Source: Pseudomonadota bacterium
GTDB taxonomy: Bacteria > Pseudomonadota > Gammaproteobacteria > Burkholderiales > Gallionellaceae
Reading direction: 5' to 3'
NCBI GenBank assembly: GCA_021782995.1
Contig: JAJXUI010000012.1
Span: 1-64,000, forward strand
DNA length: 64,000 nucleotides
The position numbers and the translations under genes were made by a program. The notes beneath the pieces are model-generated. The model made no database searches. It was not told the origin of the DNA and saw nothing but the letters and a program-made list of their open reading frames with translations. Shown here in pieces: positions 19,930 through 61,485 of the stretch (positions are counted from its first letter, which is position 1; the number at the start of each line of letters is the position of its first letter).

Positions 19930-19945
19930 TGGCGCGATTATTGCA
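19930..19945 (+). promoter_or_regulatory. Sigma-54 (-24/-12) promoter of nasT
   Basis: TGGCGC (19930-19935) and TTGCA (19941-19945) place GG and GC exactly 12 bases apart, the strict sigma-54 geometry; only one base departs from TGGCAC-N5-TTGCA. The predicted start is near 19956, about 20 bases before the nasT start codon. Confidence 0.75.
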
Positions 19946-19976: not shown

Positions 19977-20552
19977 TTGAAACGTATTCTTATTATTGAT
20001 GATCTGCGGGATCGAGCTGCATGGCTGAAAGCCAGCCTTGAAGTGGCATCCTATCATGTGGTCGGCATTCTTGCGTGGGAGCAGGTAGATGAATCCTCCA
20101 TTCAGGCTGCCCTGGCAGATGTCATTATTGTTGATGCCGATGCGCCTGGGCGCGATACCCTGGAGCAGATCAGCCTGATGTCAAATACGCTGGAAAAACC
20201 GGTAGTGGTGCTCAGTGCCCAGAAAGACCAGGAAAGCATCACACGTGCGATGCGTGCGGGGGTCAGTGCCTATGTTGCACATAGTGTGCAAGGGGAAGAC
20301 TTGAGCGGGATCATCCAGGTGGCAACTGCACGCTTTGCAGAACACAAACGTTTGCGCAACGAGCTTAAGGAAGCCAAGGACCAGCTTGCCGAACGCAAGC
20401 TGGTTGATCGAGCTAAGGCCATCCTGATGGCAGACCACGGTTACAGCGAGCCTGAGGCATACAAGCGCATGCGCAGCCTGTCGATGAGCAAAGCCAAGCG
20501 GATGGCGGAAATTGCCGAGGCGATTATCTTCACCAAGGAGTTGAGCGAGTAA
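19977..20552 (+). CDS. nasT: NasT-type ANTAR antitermination regulator
   Basis: A 191-residue cytoplasmic RNA-binding regulator. The first 120 residues form a receiver-like domain with Asp8, Asp9 and Asp53, but the conserved Lys is absent (AYVAHSV in place of the usual YxxKP region), so it is a pseudo-receiver. A coiled linker and an ANTAR domain follow (about 130-187, with DRAKAILMADHGYSEPEAYK and RMRSLSMSKAKRMAEIAEAI). ANTAR domains bind paired hexaloop hairpins and prevent termination; such a leader lies 170 bases downstream, before nrtA. In known systems NasS holds NasT inactive until nitrate binds. The start is TTG (19977) with GGGAG about 8 bases upstream; no ATG is near. It has its own sigma-54 promoter. 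Confidence 0.93.
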   Translation: MKRILIIDDLRDRAAWLKASLEVASYHVVGILAWEQVDESSIQAALADVIIVDADAPGRDTLEQISLMSNTLEKPVVVLSAQKDQESITRAMRAGVSAYVAHSVQGEDLSGIIQVATARFAEHKRLRNELKEAKDQLAERKLVDRAKAILMADHGYSEPEAYKRMRSLSMSKAKRMAEIAEAIIFTKELSE

Positions 20553-20570
20553 GGTGCATGGTTTGGTGCA
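20553..20570 (+). promoter_or_regulatory. Paired GGTGCA half-sites upstream of the nrt promoter
   Basis: GGTGCATG occurs twice, starting at 20553 and 20565, right after the nasT stop and about 120 bases upstream of the nrtA -24/-12 promoter. GGTGCA is one half of the NtrC site. The spacing does not form the canonical 17-bp palindrome, so this is only a candidate enhancer. Confidence 0.35.
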
Positions 20571-20685: not shown

Positions 20686-20701
20686 TGGCACGGCAGTTGC
20701 T
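20686..20701 (+). promoter_or_regulatory. Sigma-54 (-24/-12) promoter of the nrt operon
   Basis: TGGCAC (20686-20691), 5 bases, then TTGCT (20697-20701): a full match to the sigma-54 consensus with GG and GC 12 bases apart. The predicted start is near 20712, which places both hexaloop hairpins and the terminator in the leader RNA and leaves about 150 bases before the nrtA ATG. Confidence 0.88.
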
Positions 20702-20718
20702 TAGTGTAGGGTAAGCGG

Positions 20719-20764
20719 CGAATCAACGGCGATTCGGCGAATGAAGATCAGGGCAAAGGCGTCC
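20719..20764 (+). promoter_or_regulatory. ANTAR-type two-hairpin leader of the nrt operon
   Basis: Two hairpins with six-base loops follow the promoter. P1: CGAATC (20719-20724), loop AACGGC, GATTCG (20731-20736), 6 bp. P2: GGGC (20751-20754), loop AAAGGC, GTCC (20761-20764), 4 bp including one G-U. Both loops have A at position 1 and G at position 4, the defining ANTAR target pattern. The loop and 3' strand of P2 (20758-20764) are also the 5' strand of the terminator at 20758-20799, so P2 and the terminator exclude each other. Binding by the adjacent NasT would allow read-through. Confidence 0.85.
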
Positions 20765-20799
20765 GCTGTGCAAGTGCACGGCAGGGCGCCTTTTATTTT
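20758..20799 (+). terminator. Attenuator terminator in the nrt leader
   Basis: GGCGTCC pairs with GGGCGCC and GCTGTGC with GCACGGC (one bulged A, loop AAGT), giving about 14 bp, followed by TTTTATTTT. It lies inside the leader, 65 bases before the nrtA start, and shares sequence with hairpin P2. This marks it as a conditional terminator rather than the end of a gene. Confidence 0.88.
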
Positions 20800-20863: not shown

Positions 20864-22285
20864 ATGAAGTGCAGCAATGAAAGCAGTGAAGCGGTCATCA
20901 ATGCAGTCGGTAAAAACGCCAGACGTGGTTTTTTCAGGAAAACGGCAATTGCAGCCTGTGTACTGGCGATGAGTGGCGTTACAACATTTGGCGTAATGAG
21001 TGCAAGTGCTGAAGCAGGCAAGCCCGAGAAAACTTCAGTGAAATTCGGCTTCATCAAGCTGACGGATATGGTTCCGCTCGCCGTTGCATATGAAAAGGGC
21101 TACTTCGAGGATGAGGGGCTTTCAGTTACGCTGGAAGCGCAGGCCAACTGGAAGGTGCTGCTTGACCGCGTGGTCACGGGTGAACTGGATGGCGCACACA
21201 TGCTTGCCGGTCAGCCCATCGGCGCTACCATCGGCTTCGGCACCAAGGCAGACATCATTACGCCACTGAGCATGGACCTGAATGGCAATGGCATCACGAT
21301 CTCCAATGCAGTATGGGCCGACTTGAAGAAGAAGCTGCCAACCAAGAATGGGCAGATTGTGCATCCTATCGACCCGAAATACCTGAAGGAAGTCGTAGAT
21401 GATTACAAGAAGGAGGGCAAGACCTTCAAGATGGGTATGGTGTTTCCGGTGTCAACGCATAACTATGAGTTGCGCTACTGGCTGGCAGCAGGCGGCATCA
21501 ACCCCGGTTACTATGATCCAGTGAAGGGTGATACCAGCGGCACGATCAAGGCGGATGTACCTTTGTCCGTCACGCCGCCACCACAAATGCCGGCCACCAT
21601 GGAAGCCGGAACCATCGATGGTTATTGTGTAGGCGAACCATGGAACCAGCAGGCGGTATTCAAAGGGATTGGCGTACCGGTTGCAACCGACTATGACGTG
21701 CAGGTGAATAATCCGGAAAAGGTATTCGGCGTCACCAAGAAATGGGCGGATGAAAATCCAAACACACTCATCCATGTCGTTAAAGCGATGATCCGCGCGG
21801 GTTACTGGCTGGACGAGGAAAACAACAAGAACCGCATGGAAGCCGTGAAAATGATTGCCAAGCCCATCTATGTTGGTGCGGATGAAAATGTCATCGCAAA
21901 CAGCATGACCGGCACTTTCGAATATGAAAAGGGCGACAAGCGTGCGGCACCCGATTTCAATGTGTTCTTCCGTTACAACGCAACCTATCCTTACTACAGC
22001 GATGCTGTGTGGTACCTGACACAGATGCGCCGCTGGGGACAGATCAGCGAAGACAAACCGGACAGCTGGTACCTGAAGATGGCAAAACAGATTTACCGTC
22101 CCGACATCTATGCCAAGGCTGCCAAGGAGTTGATTGCGGAAGGCAAGATGAAAGCCTCCGATTTTCCCAACTTTGCCAAGGAAACAGGATTCAAGGGACC
22201 GCAGAAAGGCTTTATCGATGGCGTTGTCTATGATGGCAGCAAGCCTAATGAGTACCTGAAGAAATTCAAGATCGGTTTGAAGTAA
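20864..22285 (+). CDS. nrtA: Nitrate-binding periplasmic protein of an ABC transporter
   Basis: A 473-residue NrtA/CmpA/NasF-family binding protein. The N-terminus has a twin-arginine signal (ARRGFFRK, then a hydrophobic stretch ending near SASAEA), so it is likely exported folded by Tat. The mature protein starts [20 protein letters not shown], typical of nitrate/bicarbonate binders, and has the family segments [18 protein letters not shown]-like and [13 protein letters not shown]. The start ATG at 20864 follows AAGGAG by 7 bases; longer readings would run through the terminator. It is first in an operon with nrtB, nrtCD, nasS, a globin and cynS. Nitrate is the probable ligand; cyanate or nitrite is possible given the company. 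Confidence 0.92.
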
Positions 22286-22351: not shown

Positions 22352-23356
22352 ATGAATACAGCAACTATCAATGCACAGTCCGCAATACAGTCAATACTGG
22401 CGCGAGTGCTTCCGAATTCCGGCAGTGATTCGCTCATGCGAACCCTGTTCCGCAGTTTTGTACCGCCCCTCCTGGGCATCTTCGTATTCCTCGTGTTATG
22501 GGATATCGGCGCAAGCCATGTGCAGACTTCCCTGGGGACCTTGCCGGGGCCTGTTGCCGTCATCCGGCAGGCAGGCAACCTGTACCAGGAATACCGAAAT
22601 GAGCAGGAACGCAAGGCAGCATTTATCAAGCGTCAGGCGGAACGCAAAGCAGAATTTCTGGCTGCCAATCCTGGCCAGGAATACACAGGGATCAAATACA
22701 CCAGCCAGCCAACCTATCTGAACCAGATATTCACCAGCCTGTATACGGTGTTTGTCGGTTTCCTGCTGGGTACCATCATTGCGGTGCCGCTTGGCATCCT
22801 GTGCGGCCTGAACAAGACATTCCAGGCTGCGCTCAATCCGCTGATCCAGATTTTCCGTCCGGTGTCGCCGCTGGCATGGTTGCCTATCGTTACGCTGGTC
22901 GTCAGCGCGCTTTATGTATCACCAGATCCGATGTTCGCAAAATCGTTCCTGATCTCTGCAATTACCGTCACCCTGTGCTCGATGTGGCCAACGCTGGTGA
23001 ATACTGCGCTGGGTGTGGCTTCCATTGACAAGGATTTGCTGAATGTCTCCAAAGTGCTGCGTCTTTCCACCAGAACCAAAGTGATGAAAATCGTCATCCC
23101 GTCATCGCTCAAGCTGATCTTCACCGGCATGCGCCTGTCACTGGGTGTGGCCTGGATGGTACTGATTGCGGCAGAGATGCTGGCGCAGAATCCCGGCCTG
23201 GGAAAGTTTGTGTGGGATGAATTCCAGAACGGCAGCTCACAGTCGCTTGAACGCATCATGGTTGCAGTATTCACCATTGGTTTTGTCGGCTTCGTGCTCG
23301 ATCGCTCCATGCATACGCTGCAACAGATGGCCAGCTTTGGCCAGCGCAACGAGTGA
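22352..23356 (+). CDS. nrtB: Nitrate ABC transporter permease
   Basis: A 334-residue inner-membrane permease of the NrtB/SsuC/TauC class with about six membrane segments. The coupling motif that contacts the ATPase lies near 240-262 (STRTKVMKIVIPSSLKLIF), and AAEMLAQNPGLGKFVWDE is the typical family segment. Between the first and second membrane segments is a hydrophilic, charged insert of about 55 residues (NEQERKAAFIKRQAERKAEF and following), longer than in minimal NrtB proteins. It presumably forms one half of a homodimeric channel with two copies per transporter. It lies 66 bases after nrtA and 38 bases before the ATPase gene. Confidence 0.92.
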   Translation: MNTATINAQSAIQSILARVLPNSGSDSLMRTLFRSFVPPLLGIFVFLVLWDIGASHVQTSLGTLPGPVAVIRQAGNLYQEYRNEQERKAAFIKRQAERKAEFLAANPGQEYTGIKYTSQPTYLNQIFTSLYTVFVGFLLGTIIAVPLGILCGLNKTFQAALNPLIQIFRPVSPLAWLPIVTLVVSALYVSPDPMFAKSFLISAITVTLCSMWPTLVNTALGVASIDKDLLNVSKVLRLSTRTKVMKIVIPSSLKLIFTGMRLSLGVAWMVLIAAEMLAQNPGLGKFVWDEFQNGSSQSLERIMVAVFTIGFVGFVLDRSMHTLQQMASFGQRNE

Positions 23357-23394: not shown

Positions 23395-25125
23395 ATGATG
23401 AACGCTCAACTCAAAATCGAAGGAACTGCCGGTGCGGAAGCAATGCCTGCACCGTCTGCAGGCGAAGCCATACTTGAGCTCAAGGGAGTCAGCAAGTCAT
23501 ATGGCAGTGGAGACCAGCTTACGACAGTACTGAAAGACATCAACCTGCGGATTCATGAAGGCGAGTTCGTAGCCATCGTGGGATTTTCCGGCAGCGGAAA
23601 ATCTACGCTGATTTCGCTGATTTCCGGATTGCAGAAGGCGGATGCGGGCGAAGTGCTGTGCAAGGGCAGTCCGGTAACGGGCCCGGGCCCGGATCGGGGG
23701 GTGGTCTTCCAGAATTATTCCCTGATGCCATGGATGACGGTACGCCAGAATGTGGCGCTTGCGGTGGATCAGGTTTTCAGCAATGCCTCAAAGGAAGAAC
23801 GCAAGGCACGTGTCGAAAAGTATATCGATATGGTGAACCTGACACCGGCAATGGACAAGCGGCCTTCCGAATTGTCGGGGGGCATGCGTCAGCGCGTCTC
23901 CGTCGCGCGTGCACTGGCGGCATCACCGGATATCCTGCTGCTGGATGAGCCGCTGAGCGCGCTGGATGCGCTGACTCGCTCCAAATTGCAGGATGAAATC
24001 ATCCGCATCTGGAGTCAGGACAGGAAAACTGTGGTGCTGATCACCAACGAAGTCGATGAAGGCATCATCATGGCGGATCGCATCATTCCGCTGAATCCCG
24101 GTCCGGAAGCTACCCTGGGACCTGAGTTTGTGGTGAACCTGCCACGTCCACGTGACAGGGCTGCTATCAATCATTCCACCGACTTCAAGCGCATCCGCCG
24201 CGATGTCACGCAATACCTGATGCAGGTTGGTGCAGCAAAAGGTGCAGCAGATGACGGCAAGGTCGTAAAGTTGCCAGCAGTGCTGCCCAATACTTCACGT
24301 GAACATCAGGCGAACCGGAAGGATAAGGCCAGCCTGCCGCCCAATGTAGAGCGCTATGTCGATTTCTCGCGGGTGTCGAAAATCTATCCATCACGCAAGG
24401 GTCCGATCAGGGTGGTCGACGGTTTCGATTTGAAGATACGCAAGGGAGAGTTCATTTCCATCATTGGCCACTCGGGATGTGGCAAATCGACAGTGCTGTC
24501 GATGATGGCCGGACTCAATGACATCAGTGAAGGCGTGATCGTGCTGGATGGCCGCGAGGTGGATGCTGCAGGCCCGGATCGCGGCATTGTGTTTCAGTCT
24601 CCCAGCCTGGTGCCATGGTTAAGTGCCCATGAAAATGTTGCGCTGGGTGTCGAGCAGGTCTACCCCCATGCCACTGCAAACGAGCGCAGAGACATCATTG
24701 AAAATTACCTGACTCGCGTGGGGCTGGCTGATGTTCGGGACAAGAAGGCATCCGAGCTCTCCAATGGCATGAAACAGCGTGTCGGCATTGCGCGTGCATT
24801 CGCGCTGTCACCCAAGATGCTGTTGCTGGATGAGCCGTTCGGCATGCTGGATTCGCTGACGCGCTGGGATTTGCAGGAGGTCCTGATGGAAGTCTGGACC
24901 CGTACCAGTGTCACTGCGATGATGGTGACGCATGATGTCGACGAGGCGATCCTGCTTGCTGACAGGGTGGTGATGATGACCAATGGACCGAACGCGAAGG
25001 TAGGCAGGATACTGGAAGTCAACCTGCCACGTCCGCGCTCGCGCAAGATGTTGCTCGAACATCCGGACTATTACAGCCTGCGCGAACAGCTGCTGACTTT
25101 CCTCGAGGAGTGTGATCATGTCTGA
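23395..25125 (+). CDS. Fused double ATPase of the nitrate transporter (NrtC-NrtD type)
   Basis: A 576-residue protein with two ABC ATPase domains in one chain. NBD1: Walker [10 protein letters not shown] (63-71), signature LSGGM (160-164), Walker B LLLDEP, but Asn218 (ITNEVDE) at the H-loop. NBD2: Walker [10 protein letters not shown] (358-366), signature LSNGM (455-459), Walker B LLLDEP, and a normal H-loop His513 (VTHDVDE). Thus one composite site (NBD2 Walker plus NBD1 signature) is canonical, and the other combines the Asn218 and LSNGM changes. A linker rich in charged residues (about 280-320) joins the halves. Neither half carries the NrtA-like C-terminal domain of cyanobacterial NrtC. 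Two ATGs (23395, 23398) are possible starts. Confidence 0.92.
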
Positions 25126-26305
25126 CACGCCGGATAAACCAGTCGGCTTTCCGGCGCCGGAACTGAAGGAGGTCAGGGTTGGCTTTATTCCGTTGACGGA
25201 TTGCGCCTCACTTGTGGCCGCAGCAATGCTGGGCTTTGACAAGAAGTACGGCATCAGGATCCAGCTGTCGAAAGAGGCTTCATGGGCTGCAATACGCGAC
25301 AAGGTGACGAATGGCGAGCTGCATGCGGCTCACATGCTGTATGGCATGGTGTACGGTGTGCATCTCGGTATCGGGGCACCGAAGAAGGACATGGCAGTAC
25401 TGATGACGCTCAATCACAATGGCCAGGGCATCTCCTTCTCCAGCCAGATGAAGGGCGAAGGAATCACCGACGGGCAATCGCTGGCCAAAGCCATCAGGAC
25501 TGCGCGCAGAAGGTACAAGTTCGCGCATACTTTCCCGACCGGAACGCACGCGATGTGGCTCTACTACTGGCTGGCAAGTTACGGCATCAACCCGATCACC
25601 GAAATTGACACACTCACGGTACCTCCGCAGCAGATGGTGCTGAATGCGCGATTTGGCAGCATGGATGGGTTCTGCGTGGGCGAACCATGGAATGCTCGCG
25701 GCATTTATGACAAGGTCAGTATCTCAGTCGCTTCGTCGCAGGATGTCTGGGTTGACCATCCAGAGAAGGTGCTGGGTGTCACTGCGGACTTCGTGAGTGT
25801 ATATCCGGGTACGTCACGTGCGCTGATCATGGCGTTGCTGGATGCGGCTCGTTTTGTGGATGATCTTGCAAACCGGGAGAAAATTGTTGAGCTGCTTGCC
25901 GGCAAGGATTTCATTGATGCACCGGTGGATGTGATCAAGTGGCGATTCATGGGTGAGTACGAAGACGGAATGGGAGGCAGGTGGCATGACCCCAATTACC
26001 TGAAATTTTTCAACGAGGGCAAGGTGCCCTTTCCCTATCTTTCAGATGGTATGTGGTTCCTCACCCAGTTCAGGCGCTGGGGGCTGCTTAAAAAGGATCC
26101 GGACTATCTGGAAGTGGCCCGGCAGATCAATCAGGTTGACCTTTACCGGGAAGCTGCGACCCGTATCAATGTCACGGTACCGGAAAATGTGATGCGAAAT
26201 TCGCGGCTGATCGATGGCAAGGTCTGGGATGGCATCAATCCCGAAAAATACGCTGCGTCGTTCAAGATCAGGTCGGATGCGGCAAGGGAAAAAATCGTTT
26301 TGTAA
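25118..26305 (+). CDS. nasS: NasS-like cytoplasmic nitrate sensor
   Basis: A 395-residue NrtA-fold protein without any signal peptide or lipobox, so it stays in the cytoplasm. It shares the ligand-fold segments of NrtA ([46 protein letters not shown]) but belongs by length and location to NasS, which binds nitrate or nitrite and sequesters the ANTAR protein NasT when ligand is absent. The start ATG (25118) overlaps the end of the ATPase gene by 8 bases and follows GAGGAG by 7 bases; an in-frame GTG at 25112 is too close to that ribosome site. Here the sensor lies in the operon it would control, and nasT is separate upstream. A role as a second binding protein is less likely without export. 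Confidence 0.88.
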
Positions 26306-26324: not shown

Positions 26325-26738
26325 ATGAACACGGAAGCAATCAGTCTGGTGCGCAACAGCTGGGATAAGGTGCTGCCGATACAGGATGTCGCTGCAAAAC
26401 TGTTCTATGACAAGCTGTTCGAGCTGGATCCGTCATTGAAACCGCTATTCAAGGGTGACATGGCAGAGCAGGGCCGCAAGCTGATGAGCATGATCACGCT
26501 GGTGGTAGGCCGCCTTGACAGGCTCGAGCCCCTGATTGGTGCAGTGCAGGATCTTGGGCGGAGACATGCGGGGTATGGCGTGAAGGATGAACACTATGAC
26601 ACGGTAGCCGCCGCGCTACTGGATACTTTGGGCAAGGGGCTGGGGGAAGGATTTACGCAAGAGGTGAAACTGGCCTGGACGGAGGCATACATATTGCTTG
26701 CAACTGCGATGAAGGCAGCTTCAAAAACCGTGGCTTAA
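26325..26738 (+). CDS. Single-domain bacterial globin
   Basis: A 137-residue myoglobin-fold protein like Vitreoscilla haemoglobin and the haem domain of flavohaemoglobin. The proximal His81 (RRHAGYGV), the neighbouring Tyr91 and a CD1 Phe42 are present; position E7 is Gln49, as in flavohaemoglobins. No reductase domain follows, so it would need a partner reductase. Such globins bind oxygen and convert nitric oxide to nitrate. It starts 19 bases after nasS with AAGGAG before the ATG. Its place among nitrate genes suggests defence against NO made during nitrate/nitrite reduction, or feeding NO-derived nitrate into the pathway; this is inference. Confidence 0.88.
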   Translation: MNTEAISLVRNSWDKVLPIQDVAAKLFYDKLFELDPSLKPLFKGDMAEQGRKLMSMITLVVGRLDRLEPLIGAVQDLGRRHAGYGVKDEHYDTVAAALLDTLGKGLGEGFTQEVKLAWTEAYILLATAMKAASKTVA

Positions 26739-26754: not shown

Positions 26755-27210
26755 ATGAACGTAGAGAAAAGACAGCAATTGGCAACCGAGGCACTGGAGG
26801 CGAAATATCAATTGAAGCTGGGATGGCCGCAGCTGGCAGAAGCGATCGGGCGCAGTCCGGTGTATACCGCAATGCTGATATATGGCTACGGCCAGGCAAG
26901 TAAGGAAGAGGCAGAAAAGCTGGGAGCAATGTTGAAGCTCCCTTCCGAGCTGGCGATGGAAATGACCCGTGTCCCCACTCGAGTGCCTGCCCAACCGTGG
27001 CCGCCGACAGATCCTTTCATTTATCGTCTGTACGAAGCGGTGATGTTGTATGGACCGGTGTACAAGGATGTGGCACATGAAATTTTCGGTGATGGCATCA
27101 TGAGCGCAATCGACATGTCGGTGGATATCGTGAAAGTGGAAGAGCCGGCTGGCGTGCCGCGACTTGAGATGACTTTCAACGGCAAGTGGCTGCAATACAA
27201 AAAATACTGA
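26755..27210 (+). CDS. cynS: Cyanate hydratase (cyanase)
   Basis: A 151-residue cyanase. The active-site residues of E. coli CynS (Arg96, Glu99, Ser122) correspond to Arg91, Glu94 and Ser117 here, and the N-terminal helical domain and FNGKWLQYKKY end match the family. The enzyme converts cyanate and bicarbonate to carbamate (then ammonia and CO2), acting as a decamer in the cytoplasm. It lies 16 bases after the globin and is last in the nrt operon. This raises the possibility that the ABC transporter also carries cyanate, because CynABD and Nrt transporters are close relatives. A bidirectional terminator follows at 27442. Confidence 0.95.
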   Translation: MNVEKRQQLATEALEAKYQLKLGWPQLAEAIGRSPVYTAMLIYGYGQASKEEAEKLGAMLKLPSELAMEMTRVPTRVPAQPWPPTDPFIYRLYEAVMLYGPVYKDVAHEIFGDGIMSAIDMSVDIVKVEEPAGVPRLEMTFNGKWLQYKKY

Positions 27211-51784: not shown

Positions 51785-51909
51785 GAAATGAAACCTTCAG
51801 GGTTTATGCATGCACCATTTTCTGTCGGGATGAGTATATATCTCAATGAATCTCTGGACTAAAGTGTCAAATTGCATCTAATGGTATGTATCTTGCTTTT
51901 ATTGCGGGC

Positions 51910-54615
51910 ATGCAAATATTATCCACTCAAGAAACCCGCTCAACCTGCTGTTACTGCGGGGTAGGTTGCGGTGTCATCATGACCTCGGAAAACGGCAATA
52001 TCACGGGTGTGCGCGGTGATCCGGAACATCCGGCAAATTACGGCAAGCTGTGCACCAAGGGTTCCACGCTGCACCTCACGGCCAGAATGGAATTGCGTGC
52101 GCTGCATCCGGAAGTGCGGTTACAGCGCACGCATGCGCGCCAGCCCGCAAGCTGGGATGCTGCACTGGAACTGGCTGCAGACAAATTTGCCGCCATTATC
52201 CAGGCGCATGGGCCGGATGCGGTCGGCTTCTATATTTCCGGGCAATTGCTGACTGAGGATTATTATGTCTTCAACAAGCTGGTGAAAGGCCTGATCGGCA
52301 CCAACAATGTCGACACCAATTCCCGCCTGTGCATGTCGTCCGCGGTCACCGGCTATAAACAAACGCTCGGCGCGGATGCACCGCCCGGCTGTTATGACGA
52401 TGTAAACCACGCAGACTGCATTTTCATCGCCGGCTCGAATACGGCCTATGCGCATCCGGTACTGTTCCGCCGCATCGAGGAGGCGCGAAAAAGCAATCCT
52501 GACATGAAGCTGGTGGTGGTAGATCCGCGCCGTACCGATACGGCAGCGGCAGCCGACCTGCATCTTGCCATTCTGCCCGGCACTGACGTGATGCTGTTCA
52601 ATGCGATGCTGCATGTGATGCTGTGGGAAGGCTGGTACAGCGAGGAATACATTGCGGCGCATACCGAAGGCTTTGACGATCTGAAGCGCACAGTACGTGA
52701 CTATACGCCGCAACATGCAGCGACCGTTTGCGGCGTTGCGGCAGAAGACATCGTACAGGCAGCACGGTGGTTTGCCACTTCCAAAGCGACACTCTCCCTG
52801 TATTGCCAGGGACTCAACCAGTCTGCACAGGGCACACTGAAAAATGCGGCGCTGATCAACCTGCATCTCGCCACGGCACAAATCGGCCGCCCCGGTGCGG
52901 CACCGTTCTCCTTGACCGGCCAGCCGAATGCAATGGGCGGGCGCGAAGTGGGCGGGCTGGCCAATCTGCTATCGGCTCACCGCGATATGGCAAATCCCGA
53001 GCACCGTGCCGAGGTGGCTGCACTGTGGGGGGTGGAAAGTGTACCCGGCAAGCCGGGCAAGACTGCAGTGGAAATGTTCGACGCGTTGCGTAGCGGCGAG
53101 ATCAAGGCAGTGTGGATAGCGTGTACCAATCCTGCGCAATCCCTGCCGGACGTGACGCTGGTGCATGAAGCCCTGCGCACAGCGGAATTTGTCGTGGTGC
53201 AGGAAGCTTATGCCGATACCGAAACCGTGACATTTGCCGATGTGCTGTTGCCGGCAACCAGCTGGGGTGAGAAAACCGGCACGGTAACCAATTCCGAACG
53301 CAGGATTTCGCGCGTATTGCCCGCAGTGGCAGCCCCGGGCGAAGCGCGCCATGACTGGCAGATTGTGGTGGATTTTGCCGCGTGCCTGTCTGGCAAACTG
53401 GGGCGCAAAAATATCCTGGCATATGCCGATGTAGAAACAGTCTTCAACGAGCATCGCCTGAGTACCATTGGCCGCGATCTGGATATCGGCGGCATGAGTT
53501 ATGCGATGCTGGAAAGCGCCGGTCCTCAGCAGTGGCCCTTGTTGCAGGGTGAAGCGACGGGCAAGGTGCGTCTGTATGCCGATGGCGTTTACCCGACAGC
53601 GAATGGACGCGCGCGATTTGTGAATGCGAAATATGTCGGTGTGGCAGAAGACATCAATATTCGTTATCCGCTGCACCTGACCACAGGACGCTTGCGTGAC
53701 CAGTGGCATGGCATGAGCCGCACCGGCAAGCTGGGCAGGCTGTTCAGTCATGTGGAAGAGCCGATGATTTCAATGAATGAGCAGGACATGACGCGGCGCG
53801 GACTGGCGGATGGTGATGTGGTCAAAGTGGCAAGCCGGCACGGCAGTGCAACGCTGAAAGTGGCAGCGTCGCAGGAGATGCGCAGCGGCCAGACCTTTAT
53901 CCCGATGCACTGGGGCGGACAGTATATGGGCGGGGCGGGCGTGAATGCCCTGACCACCGGGGTATTTGATGCCTATTCCAAGCAGCCTGAACTCAAACAT
54001 ACTGCAGTTCAGGTGACAAAACTGGAATTGCCCTGGCAACTGGTGGCAATGCGCCGCGGCAATGCGCTGGTGCGTATGGACAGGCTACGTGCCTTGCTGC
54101 AGCGTTTCGACTACGCCACACTCGGCCTGTTCGGGCGTGAAGAGGAAGGCGTGGTATTGCGTGTGGCACATGCGGAGGCGGTACCGGAAGCGTGGCTCGC
54201 GGAAGTTGATGCGGCATTGGGACTGGACGATGCCGATGAGGTGATGAATTATCGTGATGCGAAGCGGGGTATTTCGAAGCGTGCGCTGATGTCAGATGGT
54301 CGCTTGCTCGGTGTGCGACTGAACGGGGAAACAGCGGCGCGCGACTGGCTGAAGGAAATCATTGCGCAGGGTGCTGATGCCAGGGAGTTACGCCCCTGGC
54401 TGTTTGCGCCGCTTAGCGCCCCTCCCGCCGGTCAGTCACAGCGTGGGCGCATCGTGTGCAACTGTTTCGATGTTTCCGAACAGGAAATCCTCGCTGAAGT
54501 CAGGCAGGGTGCCGAAGTCGCCGCTATCCAGGCAAAACTCAAATGCGGTACGCAATGCGGTTCATGCCTGCCGGAACTGAAGCGGCTGGTTGCCCAGCCG
54601 GTTGCTGCATCCTGA
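51910..54615 (+). CDS. nasA: Assimilatory nitrate reductase catalytic subunit with BFD domain
   Basis: About 901 residues. A 4Fe-4S site near the N-terminus (CCYCGVGCG with a C-x2-C-x3-C pattern, then LCTKG) leads into the molybdopterin oxidoreductase domain, with NSRLCMSS likely giving the Mo-ligand cysteine, and a dinucleotide-binding domain (HLTTGRLRDQWHGMSRTG). The C-terminal 60 residues form a BFD-like 2Fe-2S domain (CNCFDVSE then CGTQCGSC), as in Klebsiella NasA. It reduces nitrate to nitrite in the cytoplasm. No Tat signal is present. An in-frame ATG at 51886 would add eight residues; neither start has a strong ribosome site. nirB follows 258 bases later with its own promoter. Confidence 0.93.
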   Translation: MQILSTQETRSTCCYCGVGCGVIMTSENGNITGVRGDPEHPANYGKLCTKGSTLHLTARMELRALHPEVRLQRTHARQPASWDAALELAADKFAAIIQAHGPDAVGFYISGQLLTEDYYVFNKLVKGLIGTNNVDTNSRLCMSSAVTGYKQTLGADAPPGCYDDVNHADCIFIAGSNTAYAHPVLFRRIEEARKSNPDMKLVVVDPRRTDTAAAADLHLAILPGTDVMLFNAMLHVMLWEGWYSEEYIAAHTEGFDDLKRTVRDYTPQHAATVCGVAAEDIVQAARWFATSKATLSLYCQGLNQSAQGTLKNAALINLHLATAQIGRPGAAPFSLTGQPNAMGGREVGGLANLLSAHRDMANPEHRAEVAALWGVESVPGKPGKTAVEMFDALRSGEIKAVWIACTNPAQSLPDVTLVHEALRTAEFVVVQEAYADTETVTFADVLLPATSWGEKTGTVTNSERRISRVLPAVAAPGEARHDWQIVVDFAACLSGKLGRKNILAYADVETVFNEHRLSTIGRDLDIGGMSYAMLESAGPQQWPLLQGEATGKVRLYADGVYPTANGRARFVNAKYVGVAEDINIRYPLHLTTGRLRDQWHGMSRTGKLGRLFSHVEEPMISMNEQDMTRRGLADGDVVKVASRHGSATLKVAASQEMRSGQTFIPMHWGGQYMGGAGVNALTTGVFDAYSKQPELKHTAVQVTKLELPWQLVAMRRGNALVRMDRLRALLQRFDYATLGLFGREEEGVVLRVAHAEAVPEAWLAEVDAALGLDDADEVMNYRDAKRGISKRALMSDGRLLGVRLNGETAARDWLKEIIAQGADARELRPWLFAPLSAPPAGQSQRGRIVCNCFDVSEQEILAEVRQGAEVAAIQAKLKCGTQCGSCLPELKRLVAQPVAAS

Positions 54616-54787: not shown

Positions 54788-54803
54788 TGGCACCGTTATT
54801 GCT
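54788..54803 (+). promoter_or_regulatory. Sigma-54 (-24/-12) promoter of nirBD
   Basis: TGGCAC (54788-54793), 5 bases, TTGCT (54799-54803), with GG and GC 12 bases apart: full consensus. The predicted start is near 54814, 60 bases before nirB. No terminator lies in this leader, unlike the nrt leader. Confidence 0.88.
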
Positions 54804-54873: not shown

Positions 54874-57297
54874 ATGAAGAAAATGAAACTGGTGATGGTA
54901 GGTAACGGCATGGCCGGGGTGCGTACCCTGGAAGAGCTGATCAAGCTGGAACCCGATATTTATGACATCACCGTATTCGGCTCGGAGCCATATCCGAATT
55001 ACAACCGCATCATGCTGTCGCCGGTACTGGCTGGCGAGCAGGGCATACAGGACATCATCCTGAACGATCTGGACTGGTACAAGGAAAACCACATCACGCT
55101 GCACACCGGCAAGAAAGTGGTGAAGATCGACCGCAAGAACAAGAAGGTTTATGCCGATGATGGCACCGAGGCCGAATATGACCGCCTGTTGCTGGCCACC
55201 GGCTCCAATCCATTCATCCTGCCAGTACCCGGCAAGGAACTTCAAGGCGTGATCGGCTATCGTGACATTCATGACACCAACCAGATGATCGATGCTGCCG
55301 CCAAGTACAAGCATGCGGTGGTGATTGGCGGCGGCCTGCTCGGACTGGAAGCGGCGAATGGTCTGGCGATCCGTGGCATGGATGTGACCGTAGTGCACCT
55401 GATGCCCTGGCTGATGGAACGCCAGCTGGACAAGAGTTCGGCCAACATGTTGCAGAAATCGCTGGAAGCCAAAGGGCTGAAATTCCTGCTGGAAAAGCAG
55501 ACACAGGAACTGGTGGGTGGTGCAGATGGCCGGGTGCAATCAATCAAGTTCAAGGATGGCAGCGAGATCCCGGCTGACCTGGTAGTGATGGCAGTGGGCA
55601 TTCGCCCGAATACGGAACTGGCCGAATCGGCCGGCATCCATTGCAACCGCGGCATCGTGGTGAATGACACGATGCAGACTTTCGATCCCAGCATTTATGC
55701 GGTGGGTGAATGCGTGTCGCATCGCGGTACGGCATACGGCCTGGTGGCGCCTTTGTTCGACATGGCCAAGGTATGCGCAAACCATCTGGCGCGACTGGGC
55801 ATCGCGCGTTACCAGGGTTCGATCACTTCCACCAAGCTGAAAGTCACCGGCATCGACCTGTTCTCGGCAGGTGACTTTACCGGCAATGACCAGACCGAGG
55901 AAATCCTCATGCATGACGCTGCCGGCGGCGTTTACAAAAAGCTGGTGCTGAAAGACGACAAGCTGGTGGGCGCGGTAATGTACGGCGATACCAAGGATGG
56001 TGCATGGTATTTCCAGATGATACGTGATGGACGCTCGGTGACTGATATTCGTGATCACCTGATGTTCGGCCAGTCGCATCTGGGCAATCTGGGTCATCAG
56101 GGTCAGGATCTTGCGGCTACGATGCCGGACAGCATGGAAGTGTGCGGATGCAATGGCGTATGCAAGGGCGATATCACGAAGTCGATCAAGGAGAAGGGCC
56201 TGTTCACGCTGGAGGATGTGCGCAAGCACACCAAGGCTTCCGCTTCGTGCGGCTCCTGTACCGGCCTGGTCGAGCAGATTCTGGCTTCCACGCTGGGCGG
56301 TGCTTATGCGCCGCAGGCGACAGCGCAGAAACCGATGTGCGGTTGTACCTCGCATACGCATGAAGAAGTGCGCAAGGCGATTGTCGAAAACAAGCTGCTG
56401 TCGATTCCCGATGTGATGACATTCATGCAGTGGAACACGCCGAATGGCTGTGCCAGCTGCCGTCCGGCGTTGAACTATTATGTGCTTTGCGCATGGCCGC
56501 ATGAAGCCAAGGATGATCCGCAATCGAGATTCATCAATGAACGCGCGCATGGCAACATCCAGAAGGATGGCACATTCTCCGTGGTGCCACGCATGCATGG
56601 CGGTGTGACCACGCCGGACCAGTTGCGCCGCATCGCCGATGTCGCGGAAAAATACAAGGTGCCGACAGTGAAAGTGACCGGGGGTCAGCGTATCGACCTG
56701 TTCGGAATCAAGAAAGAGGACTTGCCGAGTGTGTGGGCGGATCTGGGCATGAGCTCGGGTTATGCCTATGGCAAGGCGCTGCGCACGGTGAAGACGTGTG
56801 TCGGCAGTGAGTGGTGCCGCTTCGGTGTGCAGGATTCCACGCAGATGGGGATTGATCTTGAATATGCGCTGGACCGCATGTGGACACCGCACAAATTCAA
56901 GCTGGCCGTTTCCGGCTGCCCGCGTAACTGTGCCGAAGCCGCGATCAAGGATGTGGGCATCATCGGTGTCGATTCCGGCTGGGAAATCTATGTGGGCGGA
57001 AATGGCGGCATCAAGACAGAAGTCGCGCAGTTCCTGGTGAAAGTGAAGTCGAAGGAAGAGGTGCTGGAATACACGATGGCGTTCACCCAGCTGTATCGCG
57101 AAGAAGCGCGTTACCTGGATCGCTCCGTGCATTATGTGGAACGTGTCGGCCTTGACTACATCAAGGAAAAAATCGTGGGCGATGTGGCCAACCGCAAGGC
57201 ATTGCATGAACGCCTGCTGTTTGCCTTGCAGGGACTCGGCGATCCCTGGGCAAACGAGAACGTGAACAAGCGTGAATTCGAATCACTGACAGTATAG
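54874..57297 (+). CDS. nirB: NADH-dependent nitrite reductase, large subunit
   Basis: An 807-residue flavoprotein with siroheme. The N-terminal half is a FAD/NADH oxidoreductase (VGNGMAGVRTLEEL, then VIGGGLLGLEAANGL). Cysteine clusters of the BFD type follow (CGCNGVCKGD, CGSCTGLVEQ, CGCTSHTHEE, CASC). The C-terminal half has the sulfite/nitrite reductase domains with the siroheme-4Fe-4S cysteines TCVGSEWC and SGCPRNCAE. It reduces nitrite to ammonium in six electrons. CAGGAGCAGAGCA precedes the ATG. It is co-transcribed with nirD, 17 bases downstream. Confidence 0.96.
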   Translation: MKKMKLVMVGNGMAGVRTLEELIKLEPDIYDITVFGSEPYPNYNRIMLSPVLAGEQGIQDIILNDLDWYKENHITLHTGKKVVKIDRKNKKVYADDGTEAEYDRLLLATGSNPFILPVPGKELQGVIGYRDIHDTNQMIDAAAKYKHAVVIGGGLLGLEAANGLAIRGMDVTVVHLMPWLMERQLDKSSANMLQKSLEAKGLKFLLEKQTQELVGGADGRVQSIKFKDGSEIPADLVVMAVGIRPNTELAESAGIHCNRGIVVNDTMQTFDPSIYAVGECVSHRGTAYGLVAPLFDMAKVCANHLARLGIARYQGSITSTKLKVTGIDLFSAGDFTGNDQTEEILMHDAAGGVYKKLVLKDDKLVGAVMYGDTKDGAWYFQMIRDGRSVTDIRDHLMFGQSHLGNLGHQGQDLAATMPDSMEVCGCNGVCKGDITKSIKEKGLFTLEDVRKHTKASASCGSCTGLVEQILASTLGGAYAPQATAQKPMCGCTSHTHEEVRKAIVENKLLSIPDVMTFMQWNTPNGCASCRPALNYYVLCAWPHEAKDDPQSRFINERAHGNIQKDGTFSVVPRMHGGVTTPDQLRRIADVAEKYKVPTVKVTGGQRIDLFGIKKEDLPSVWADLGMSSGYAYGKALRTVKTCVGSEWCRFGVQDSTQMGIDLEYALDRMWTPHKFKLAVSGCPRNCAEAAIKDVGIIGVDSGWEIYVGGNGGIKTEVAQFLVKVKSKEEVLEYTMAFTQLYREEARYLDRSVHYVERVGLDYIKEKIVGDVANRKALHERLLFALQGLGDPWANENVNKREFESLTV

Positions 57298-59987: not shown

Positions 59988-61337
59988 TCAGTCCAGGCGA
60001 TAGCGTTTGAGCTTGCGGTATAGCGTACGTTCGCTGATGCCCAGTGCATCTGCAACATTGCGGCGATGGCCGTTATAACTCTGCAGCAGCTTGGCAATAT
60101 GATCGGCTTCGACACTGGCAATGGATCGATCCGTATTGAGGTTTGTGCTAGCTGCTGCAAGTTGCATCAAGGGTGCTGGCACGGTTGCCGGCTGCGGCGG
60201 TGCGGATTCGCTGAAATGGATGTTGGCGGCACCGATGATGCCGTTATTGCATTCGGCAACCGCTTTCATCAGGATGTTTTTGAGCTCGCGGATGTTGCCG
60301 GGGAAATCGTAATCCTGCAACAGGTCCATTGCCTCCTGGGTAAATTTGCAGCTATTGCCATTGCTGCGGGTGATGCGCATCAGCATGGCCTGTGCCAGTG
60401 CCGGGATGTCGCTTTTGCGTTCGCGCAGCGTGGGCAGGCGCAAGTCGATACCGGCAATGCGGTAAAACAGGTCCTTGCGGAATTCGCCATTGTGCACTTT
60501 CTGCAGCAGGTCGTTGTTGGTGGCGGAAAGCAGGCGCACATCGGCGTTCAGTGTTTCCGTGCCGCCGATGCGGCGGAACTCCCCGCTTTCCAGCACGCGC
60601 AGCAATTTGGCCTGCATGTACATCGGCATGTCGCCGATCTCGTCGAGGAACAGAGTGCCCTTGTCGGCCATTTCAAACAAGCCCTGCTTGCGTCCCACGC
60701 AGCCGGTGAATGCTCCACGTTCGTGGCCGAACAGTTCATCCTCGAACATGTCGGCAGCAATCGACGCACAATTGAGCACGATCAGTGGCTGCTGCTTGCG
60801 GGAGGAGCGCTTGTGGATGTATTGCGCCGCGAGTTCCTTGCCGACGCCGCTTTCCCCCAGCAACAGGATGGCGGCATTGGTTGCAGCGGCACGGGTAAGT
60901 TGTTCCAGTGTGTTGAGAAAGGCTGGAGAGTTGCCCACCATCTGCATGTCTTCGCAGGCGAGCTCATCGGTACTCGCAATCGGGAACACCGCTTCACCCA
61001 GAAACAGCCGGTTGTTGCTGCGTATCGGGTGACCCTTGATGCGCACATGTTCCGGACGGTTATGGCTGTCGAAGTGTGTATGGATGACTTCATGCATTTG
61101 CCCGGTGCGGAACACTTCCTGGTGCGGGCAGTCCTCGCCATTCTGGTGGCATGGCACTTTAGACAGGTGCGAAACCTCATGACAGCAACGACCGATGATG
61201 TCTTCGCGCGTCACACCGTAATTGGTGCAATAGGCCTTGTTGGCCGCGACGATATGGTAGTGCTCGTCGATCAGTACAAAAGGGTTTTCCTGGACGTCGA
61301 TCAGTGCCTGCAATTCGCTGCGGTTAAAATTTTCCAA
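59988..61337 (-). CDS. fisR: FisR-like sigma-54 activator sensing sulfane sulfur
   Basis: About 449 residues: an N-terminal PAS-type sensor (about 10-105), an AAA+ sigma-54 interaction domain (GESGVGKE Walker A, GTLFLDEIGDMP Walker B, arginine fingers), and a Fis-type HTH (VADALGISERTLYRKLKRY). The sensor has Cys52, Cys63 and Cys70; the 11 and 7 residue spacings equal those of Cys53, Cys64 and Cys71 in Cupriavidus FisR, which respond to polysulfide. The sigma-54 contact loop reads GAFTGC, not GAFTGA. The start is TTG (61337), 8 bases after AGGAG; a longer TTG frame starts at 61355. It is divergent from sqr across inverted repeats and a sigma-54 promoter. Confidence 0.87.
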   Translation of the reverse strand: MENFNRSELQALIDVQENPFVLIDEHYHIVAANKAYCTNYGVTREDIIGRCCHEVSHLSKVPCHQNGEDCPHQEVFRTGQMHEVIHTHFDSHNRPEHVRIKGHPIRSNNRLFLGEAVFPIASTDELACEDMQMVGNSPAFLNTLEQLTRAAATNAAILLLGESGVGKELAAQYIHKRSSRKQQPLIVLNCASIAADMFEDELFGHERGAFTGCVGRKQGLFEMADKGTLFLDEIGDMPMYMQAKLLRVLESGEFRRIGGTETLNADVRLLSATNNDLLQKVHNGEFRKDLFYRIAGIDLRLPTLRERKSDIPALAQAMLMRITRSNGNSCKFTQEAMDLLQDYDFPGNIRELKNILMKAVAECNNGIIGAANIHFSESAPPQPATVPAPLMQLAAASTNLNTDRSIASVEADHIAKLLQSYNGHRRNVADALGISERTLYRKLKRYRLD

Positions 61338-61349
61338 TGGTTTGTCTCC

Positions 61350-61424
61350 TGACAAAGTGTCATGACGGTGTCAGGATTCTAGGTGATATCTGCCATTTTG
61401 ACATGACAAAAAAATTGTCATGTC
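61350..61424. promoter_or_regulatory. TGACA/TGTCA inverted repeats between fisR and sqr
   Basis: TGACA-AAG-TGTCA (61350-61362), TGACG-G-TGTCA (61363-61373) and the long palindrome GACATGACAA-N5-TTGTCATGTC (61400-61424) lie 45-120 bases upstream of the sqr -24 element and right behind the fisR start. They are likely enhancer sites for the divergent activator, which would also let it control itself. Confidence 0.65.
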
Positions 61425-61469: not shown

Positions 61470-61485
61470 TGGCACGTTGCTTGCT
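61470..61485 (+). promoter_or_regulatory. Sigma-54 (-24/-12) promoter of sqr
   Basis: TGGCAC (61470-61475), 5 bases, TTGCT (61481-61485), GG and GC 12 bases apart: full consensus. The predicted start is near 61496, 89 bases before the sqr ATG. It sits downstream of inverted repeats and of the divergent fisR gene. Confidence 0.88.

Follow-up and report, generated by a model that had tools for sequence, protein, structure and literature searches.

Results

Genes at the nasT-nrtA locus

The window (the whole stretch of 64,000 nucleotides that was analysed) comes from a Gallionellaceae-like MAG of 2.75 Mb in 73 contigs that is 85% complete, and all features described around nrtA lie on its + strand. 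nasT (19977-20552) begins with TTG and encodes a protein of 191 aa with a receiver-like domain (Pfam Response_reg, 38.5 bits) and an ANTAR domain (65.7 bits), both over the cut-off. It is preceded by a sigma-54-like site, TGGCGCGATTATTGCA, that matches at 11/12 positions (19930-19945). TGGTGCA at 20564-20570, read from the sequence, is an NtrC-like half-site. Next comes nrtA (20864-22285), which encodes a nitrate-type substrate-binding protein (Pfam NMT1_2, 329 bits) in which a twin-arginine motif, ARRGFF, can be read. The ATG at 20864, with AAGGAG before it, is the most likely start of nrtA; the frame could be extended to an ATG at 20741, which has no obvious ribosome site.

The operon continues in the order nrtB, nrtCD, a signal-less protein of the NrtA/NasS family, globin and cyanase. 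The permease gene nrtB (22352-23356) matches BPD_transp_1 and scores 161.5 bits with TIGR01183, under the cut-off of 209.05. The product of nrtCD (23395-25125) carries two fused ATP-binding domains and matches TIGR01184 in two stretches (613.7 bits, over the cut-off of 291.8). The fourth gene (25112-26305; Pfam NMT1_2, 297 bits) encodes a nasS-like nitrate-binding protein, proposed as the sensor from these matches and its position in the tree described below; motif inspection found neither a twin arginine nor a hydrophobic N-terminus. This gene lies within the controlled operon, apart from nasT. The globin gene (26325-26738) scores 58.4 bits with Pfam Globin, and cynS, for cyanase (26755-27210), scores 172.4 bits with TIGR00673, over the cut-off. 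A globin gene also lies 3' of nasS in two relatives (G007 and G017), and cynS is found in the transporter operon of locus L007.

Both rpoN and ntrC are present in the genome, which encodes two ANTAR proteins. One is NasT, whose gene adjoins the leader described below. The other (L002 1075-1701, on C22) has receiver and ANTAR domains and is 26% identical to NasT; its gene adjoins one that resembles a PAS histidine kinase.

Structure of the leader

Between nasT and nrtA, a -24/-12 promoter element, TGGCACGGCAGTTGCT, occupies 20686-20701, 133 bases past the end of nasT at 20552. As the original prediction had it, the site is a consensus one: all 12/12 defined positions match, and transcription of the nrtA operon would be expected to start near 20711-20713. 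Nine sites with at most one mismatch were counted in the window against 1.66 expected, two of them exact (20686 and 61470), so that the site alone says little and its conservation carries the weight. The second exact site (61470-61485) stands before an ORF resembling an FAD-dependent oxidoreductase and is divergent from a gene that resembles a sigma-54 activator (59988-61355). A sigma-70 scan and a simple terminator scan of the window were uninformative.

Two hairpins with six-base loops follow, each with A at loop position 1 and G at position 4, as predicted. P1 (20719-20736) has six pairs, CGAATC with GATTCG, around the loop AACGGC. The antiterminator hairpin P2 (20751-20764) has four pairs, GGGC with GTCC, one of them G-U, around AAAGGC. 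P1 begins about 166 bases past nasT, close to the 170 bases proposed for the distance from the ANTAR gene. An intrinsic terminator (20758-20799) has a stem that extends to 20790 and a U-tract at 20791-20799. The fourth base of the P2 loop (20758) opens the 5' arm of this terminator, and bases 20758-20764 are common to both structures; the claim that this arm consists of the loop and 3' arm of the second hairpin was thus borne out, and the two pairings are mutually exclusive.

The predicted folding energy is -43.1 kcal/mol for the leader (z -4.69; 0/200 shuffles as low) and -29 kcal/mol for the terminator alone (z -6.86). The simple scan of the window did not list the terminator at 20758-20799, perhaps owing to a bulged A. 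When the RNA was cut at 20765, P1 and P2 both formed (z -1.90; 9/200 shuffles as good). This gain in energy is modest, and the case for P2 therefore rests on conservation rather than energy.

Conservation and covariation

A scan of genome contigs gave 79 loci, of which 27 (L003-L029) hold true relatives of NasT with 75-85% identity; the others (L030-L081) matched in the receiver domain, at 25-35% identity, and were set aside. A leader of the same build lies directly 3' of nasT in 17/27 relatives. A covariance model located the leader elsewhere in three loci (L012, L023 and L028), and in 7/27 relatives no leader was seen within the stretch examined (short contigs or other contexts).

Eighteen leaders were aligned (A1). 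The pattern used to pick them demanded a P2-like core as well as a promoter-like site, and selection therefore accounts for part of the conservation in this alignment; the covariance model contains no promoter, which makes its matches less biased. The check on both hairpins that had been proposed came out in favour of the leader: P1 and P2 formed in 18/18 aligned sequences, with 180/180 cells paired and seven cells changed on both sides. None of 500 shuffles scored as high for pairing or for covariation, and pairing fell to 49% or less when the partners were slid against each other. The number of pairs with double changes was reached in 7/500 shuffles, and the observed value for further pair types in 425/500. 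For P1 with the terminator, 98.3% of 358 cells were paired (97.6% of the terminator cells) and nine pairs had changed on both sides; again, 0/500 shuffles were as high for pairing or covariation. RNAalifold, unaided, recovered P1 and the terminator. In L022, position 92 is a U that pairs with an A on the P2 side and with an A on the terminator side, which supports a switch between the two structures.

Occurrence of the leader and its regulon

A covariance model built without the promoter (R1; threshold E 0.001) found the leader in 49/150 genomes of the family. A NasT-type or NasR match was found in 55/150, and all 49 leader genomes are among these 55. The leader was found in 0/95 family genomes that lacked such a match (Fisher 2.9e-33); it is co-inherited with an ANTAR regulator. 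Four genomes with NasT gave no leader match (G020, G069, G070 and G136), and neither did two that have only a distant ANTAR protein (G111 and G144). In another genome, G049, NasR (NIT, 149.5 bits; ANTAR, 76.5 bits) lies before the leader in place of NasT, and the sole match to the NasS/NrtA family is NrtA. Two kinds of ANTAR regulator would then act on one type of leader, which is what a common target in the loops would predict.

The 49 genomes contain 64 leaders. These remained after 43/107 raw matches were dropped as lying opposite a better match; opposite-strand matches arise because the terminator is palindromic. Both loops have A1 and G4 in 60/64 leaders and 4/64 deviate. A nitrate or nitrite gene lies within 900 nt of 64/64 leaders: a NasS-family binding protein follows 31 of them, nirB 14, nrtA 10, a NarK-type MFS protein eight and a nasA-like gene one. 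This is a consistency test, since the reference set held nitrate and nitrite genes only. Five of the downstream matches start 416-689 nt past the leader, and after one leader (L022, G012) a short winged-helix-like ORF comes first. The MFS protein of L024 is NarK-like (TIGR00886, 289.9 bits, just under the cut-off of 311.7). Some operons, among them those of L006 (9940-10031), L009 (14076-14167) and L014 (13777-13868), contain a second ANTAR leader before nirB, behind the transporter genes. These inner leaders have no sigma-54 site and place two antitermination switches in series.

At the level of the order, R1 matched 47/300 genomes. At least two A1/G4 hexaloop hairpins were present in 25/25 leader loci inspected outside the family, and a sigma-54 site in 12/25.

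Within the family, a sigma-54 site (at least 9/12) lies no more than 45 nt upstream of 55/64 leaders, in most cases with identical spacing; among random 50-mers, 369/20000 contained one. Five of the nine leaders without the site precede nirB. NtrC-like half-sites (TGCACCA/TGGTGCA; half-sites were counted, not full dyads) occur upstream of 39/63 leaders versus 1.42 expected from shuffles. In 24/28 loci, the 150 nt before nasT also contain a sigma-54 site (at least 9/12), versus 8.1% of random 150-mers from the window. This count agrees with the sigma-54 promoters predicted for the nasT gene family in the excerpt of PMC12316311.

Other sites in the genome

R1 matched this leader at E 2.3e-14, and the next matches in the genome were at E 0.55 and 0.72. 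Both were dropped as second leaders: one is the antisense of the known leader and the other (on C21) is a terminator-like stretch without the loops. The nirB gene of the window (54874-57297; TIGR02374, 947 bits) is preceded by a sigma-54-like site, TGGCACCGTTATTGCT (54788-54803). Unlike in many relatives, no ANTAR leader was seen between this site and the nirB start, and nitrogen status may be the sole signal for nitrite reductase in this genome. Beside nirB, 51886-54615 encodes a molybdopterin oxidoreductase that carries a BFD [2Fe-2S] domain at its C-terminus and for which all family scores were under cut-off; it is probably the assimilatory nitrate reductase. The leader of its relative in G007 (81%) has a weak P1.

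Two forms of the NasS-family protein

The family genomes with NasT number 52 (the 55 with matches minus G049, G111 and G144, which have NasR or a distant ANTAR protein only). In 32/52, the sole NasS-family protein is Tat-type (for example, SRRDFM and a hydrophobic stretch), and 13/52 have a signal-less protein. Neither type was found in 7/52 (G009, G116, G120, G121, G133, G141 and G146), some of them fragmented. In G141 and G120, NasT occurs with only an NrtA; these two count against a strict rule. Tat calls were made by a crude rule that asked for a twin arginine and for hydrophobicity; four proteins were relabelled as Tat-like by eye (G160, G186, G191, with KR, and G215) and the nrtA outgroup rows were relabelled as Tat. 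A wider search of 16 good Tat-type genomes gave one full-length nitrate-type binding protein each, at >300 bits, and all others at 86 bits or less. The one full-length binding protein of G049, G120 and G141 in this search was NrtA.

In trees rooted on a distant NrtA outgroup, in which some signal-less rows are long-branched, the signal-less proteins nest within the Tat-type proteins. A quick tree had four changes; without three long rows there were again four, of which only two were forced by starred branches. A careful tree had six changes, at least four of them forced; its bootstrap was unsettled and contained no tree with one origin. Genes for a permease or an ATPase of their own type follow 57/58 Tat-type proteins (the exception is G229) versus 0/19 signal-less ones, with four rows unscored. 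Another transporter, NarK-like or NrtABCD, lies near 17/19 signal-less proteins, two of these at 26-27% identity only. When loss of the signal was compared with absence of the own ABC genes in independent pairs, the best case was 4/4 (p 0.125). These results, suggestive only, make it seem that signal-less NasS, as in the window, was derived several times from a Tat-type protein where its own ABC genes were absent. In G068 (L281 7538-8854), a Tat-like signal region can still be aligned, with the twin arginine and the hydrophobic core replaced.

Comparison with Rfam families

At gathering thresholds, no Rfam family matched in the window or in 17 other loci. A permissive search aligned two families to the window under their gathering scores, the narK RNA (RF03032; 32.5 bits against 43.2) and the Pseudomonas sRNA P11 (RF00625; 26.7 bits against 70). 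In 20 relatives' loci (61.5 kb), all 39 matches at E 0.05 or less were narK (20/20 loci) or P11 (19/20) and fell at the leader; the narK gathering score was passed in 2/20. The narK consensus has a -24/-12-like GGCAC..TTGCT, a hairpin with the loop AACGGC and then GACAAAGACGUC, which is able to form P2 with the loop AAAGAC; the model differs in leaving P2 unpaired and in holding no terminator. The P11 consensus likewise contains a promoter-like start, a P1-like part, a core of GGACAAAGGCGUCC and a terminator, but is filed as an sRNA gene. From these consensus sequences, both families look like ANTAR leaders. P11 may have been identified with the nirBD leader before. A limited search of the literature listed no paper equating the narK RNA or P11 with ANTAR leaders.

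Discussion

We consider it highly probable that 20686-20799 is a control leader with two inputs for the nitrate-uptake operon, combining sigma-54/NtrC activation with NasS-NasT antitermination. By homology, nitrate is the probable substrate, and when nitrogen is short, sigma-54 polymerase at 20686-20701 would be activated by NtrC-P. The nascent RNA would form P1 first and, unless NasT intervenes, the terminator next, and transcription would stop near 20795. In the presence of nitrate or nitrite, the NasS-like protein is predicted to release NasT, whose ANTAR dimer would hold the loops of P1 and P2, as in homologous systems. P2 would then take up bases of the terminator 5' arm, the terminator would not form, and nrtA-nrtB-nrtCD-nasS-globin-cynS would be transcribed. 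The operon should be transcribed only with nitrogen short and nitrate present. Feedback on its own control would be expected because the nasS-like gene lies inside the controlled operon.

A strong terminator just 3' of nasT might also be an ordinary one that ends nasT transcription or read-through, with no ANTAR control. Such a terminator would leave unexplained the sigma-54 site at fixed spacing between nasT and the hairpins, the conservation of P1 and of the two loops, and the same leader away from nasT, before nirB, nasA-like and NarK genes; we regard this explanation as exceedingly improbable. The terminated leader could instead act as a small RNA, of the sort that Rfam files as Pseudomonas P11: a stop at the terminator would yield a transcript of some 85 nt, and RF00625 does align here at 26.7 bits. 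That score is below the gathering level of 70, promoter, P1, P2 and terminator can all be read in the consensus of P11 as well, and the leader function accounts for all of the conserved parts; a small-RNA role is very unlikely.

It is also conceivable that the element is an ANTAR leader that responds to cyanate or some other anion in place of nitrate. The operon ends in cynS (26755-27210), cynS adjoins transporter genes in L007 as well, and nrtB is under its family cut-off. However, the same leader stands before nirB (14/64), a nasA-like gene and NarK-type MFS genes (8), the ATPase scores over the cut-off of the nitrate-transport model, and in G049 the place of NasT is taken by NasR, which has a NIT nitrate domain. 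A signal other than nitrate is unlikely. The expectation that the geometry is that of ANTAR control holds up in the loops, the terminator overlap, the covariation, the co-occurrence with NasT and the make-up of the regulon.

Switches of this type were already known. ANTAR dual-hairpin RNAs are established in the excerpts of PMC3369931 and PMC3369936, and the sequence-level features of the class in the former (two hexaloop hairpins, A1 and G4, overlap of P2 with the terminator, an ANTAR gene in the genome) were found for the window leader. NalA, the nirBD leader of Pseudomonas, has a sigma-54/NtrC promoter, a terminator-bearing leader RNA and NasT antitermination and serves nitrate and nitrite genes, as is proposed here (excerpts of PMC12830290, citing Romeo 2012, and PMC8092218); it differs in that its first gene is nirB, and the likeness was judged from its published description. 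In Klebsiella, nasF is controlled by NtrC and NasR (excerpt of PMC5424462). It shares with the window two A1/G4 hexaloop hairpins, the overlap of P2 and terminator, nitrate assimilation and, as predicted for the window, NtrC control (excerpts of PMC3369936, PMC3369931 and PMC7496416). Its regulator is the one-component NasR, whereas the window has NasT, though G049 has NasR. NasS-NasT of Paracoccus denitrificans resembles the window in its ANTAR protein NasT, a signal-less nitrate-binding NasS and a hairpin leader before the nas genes, but nasT and nasS are adjacent and cotranscribed there, while nasS in the window is the fourth gene of the operon and its product is nearest to Tat-type transport proteins (excerpts of PMC3795266 and PMC5424462). 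Of the original prediction, dual control by sigma-54 and NasS-NasT found support; the combination was already known from NalA and nasF, and the nasS-like gene lies away from nasT.

The excerpt of PMC3795266 describes NasS as lacking the N-terminal signal of NrtA; a literature search on Tat-type NasS found no paper. We tentatively propose, as a possibility that we would not yet favour, that in many bacteria of the order Burkholderiales the exported Tat-type ABC nitrate-binding protein doubles as NasS and, already folded in the cytoplasm prior to export, holds NasT until nitrate appears. The signal would have been lost once NarK or NrtABCD replaced the own ABC genes, leaving a pure sensor as in the window, and no such protein would be left where NasR replaced NasT (G049). 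A plain alternative for the genomes with only a Tat-type protein is that NasT runs free or has another partner.

The two-input leader extends the control of nitrate uptake by sigma-54 and ANTAR antitermination to the Gallionellaceae, with a regulon that comprises the transporter, NarK, nirB and a nasA-like gene. It suggests what the Rfam narK RNA may do, and the 'sRNA' P11 deserves a second look. The survey of NasS-family proteins raises the question of how NasT would sense nitrate where the sole such protein bears an export signal.
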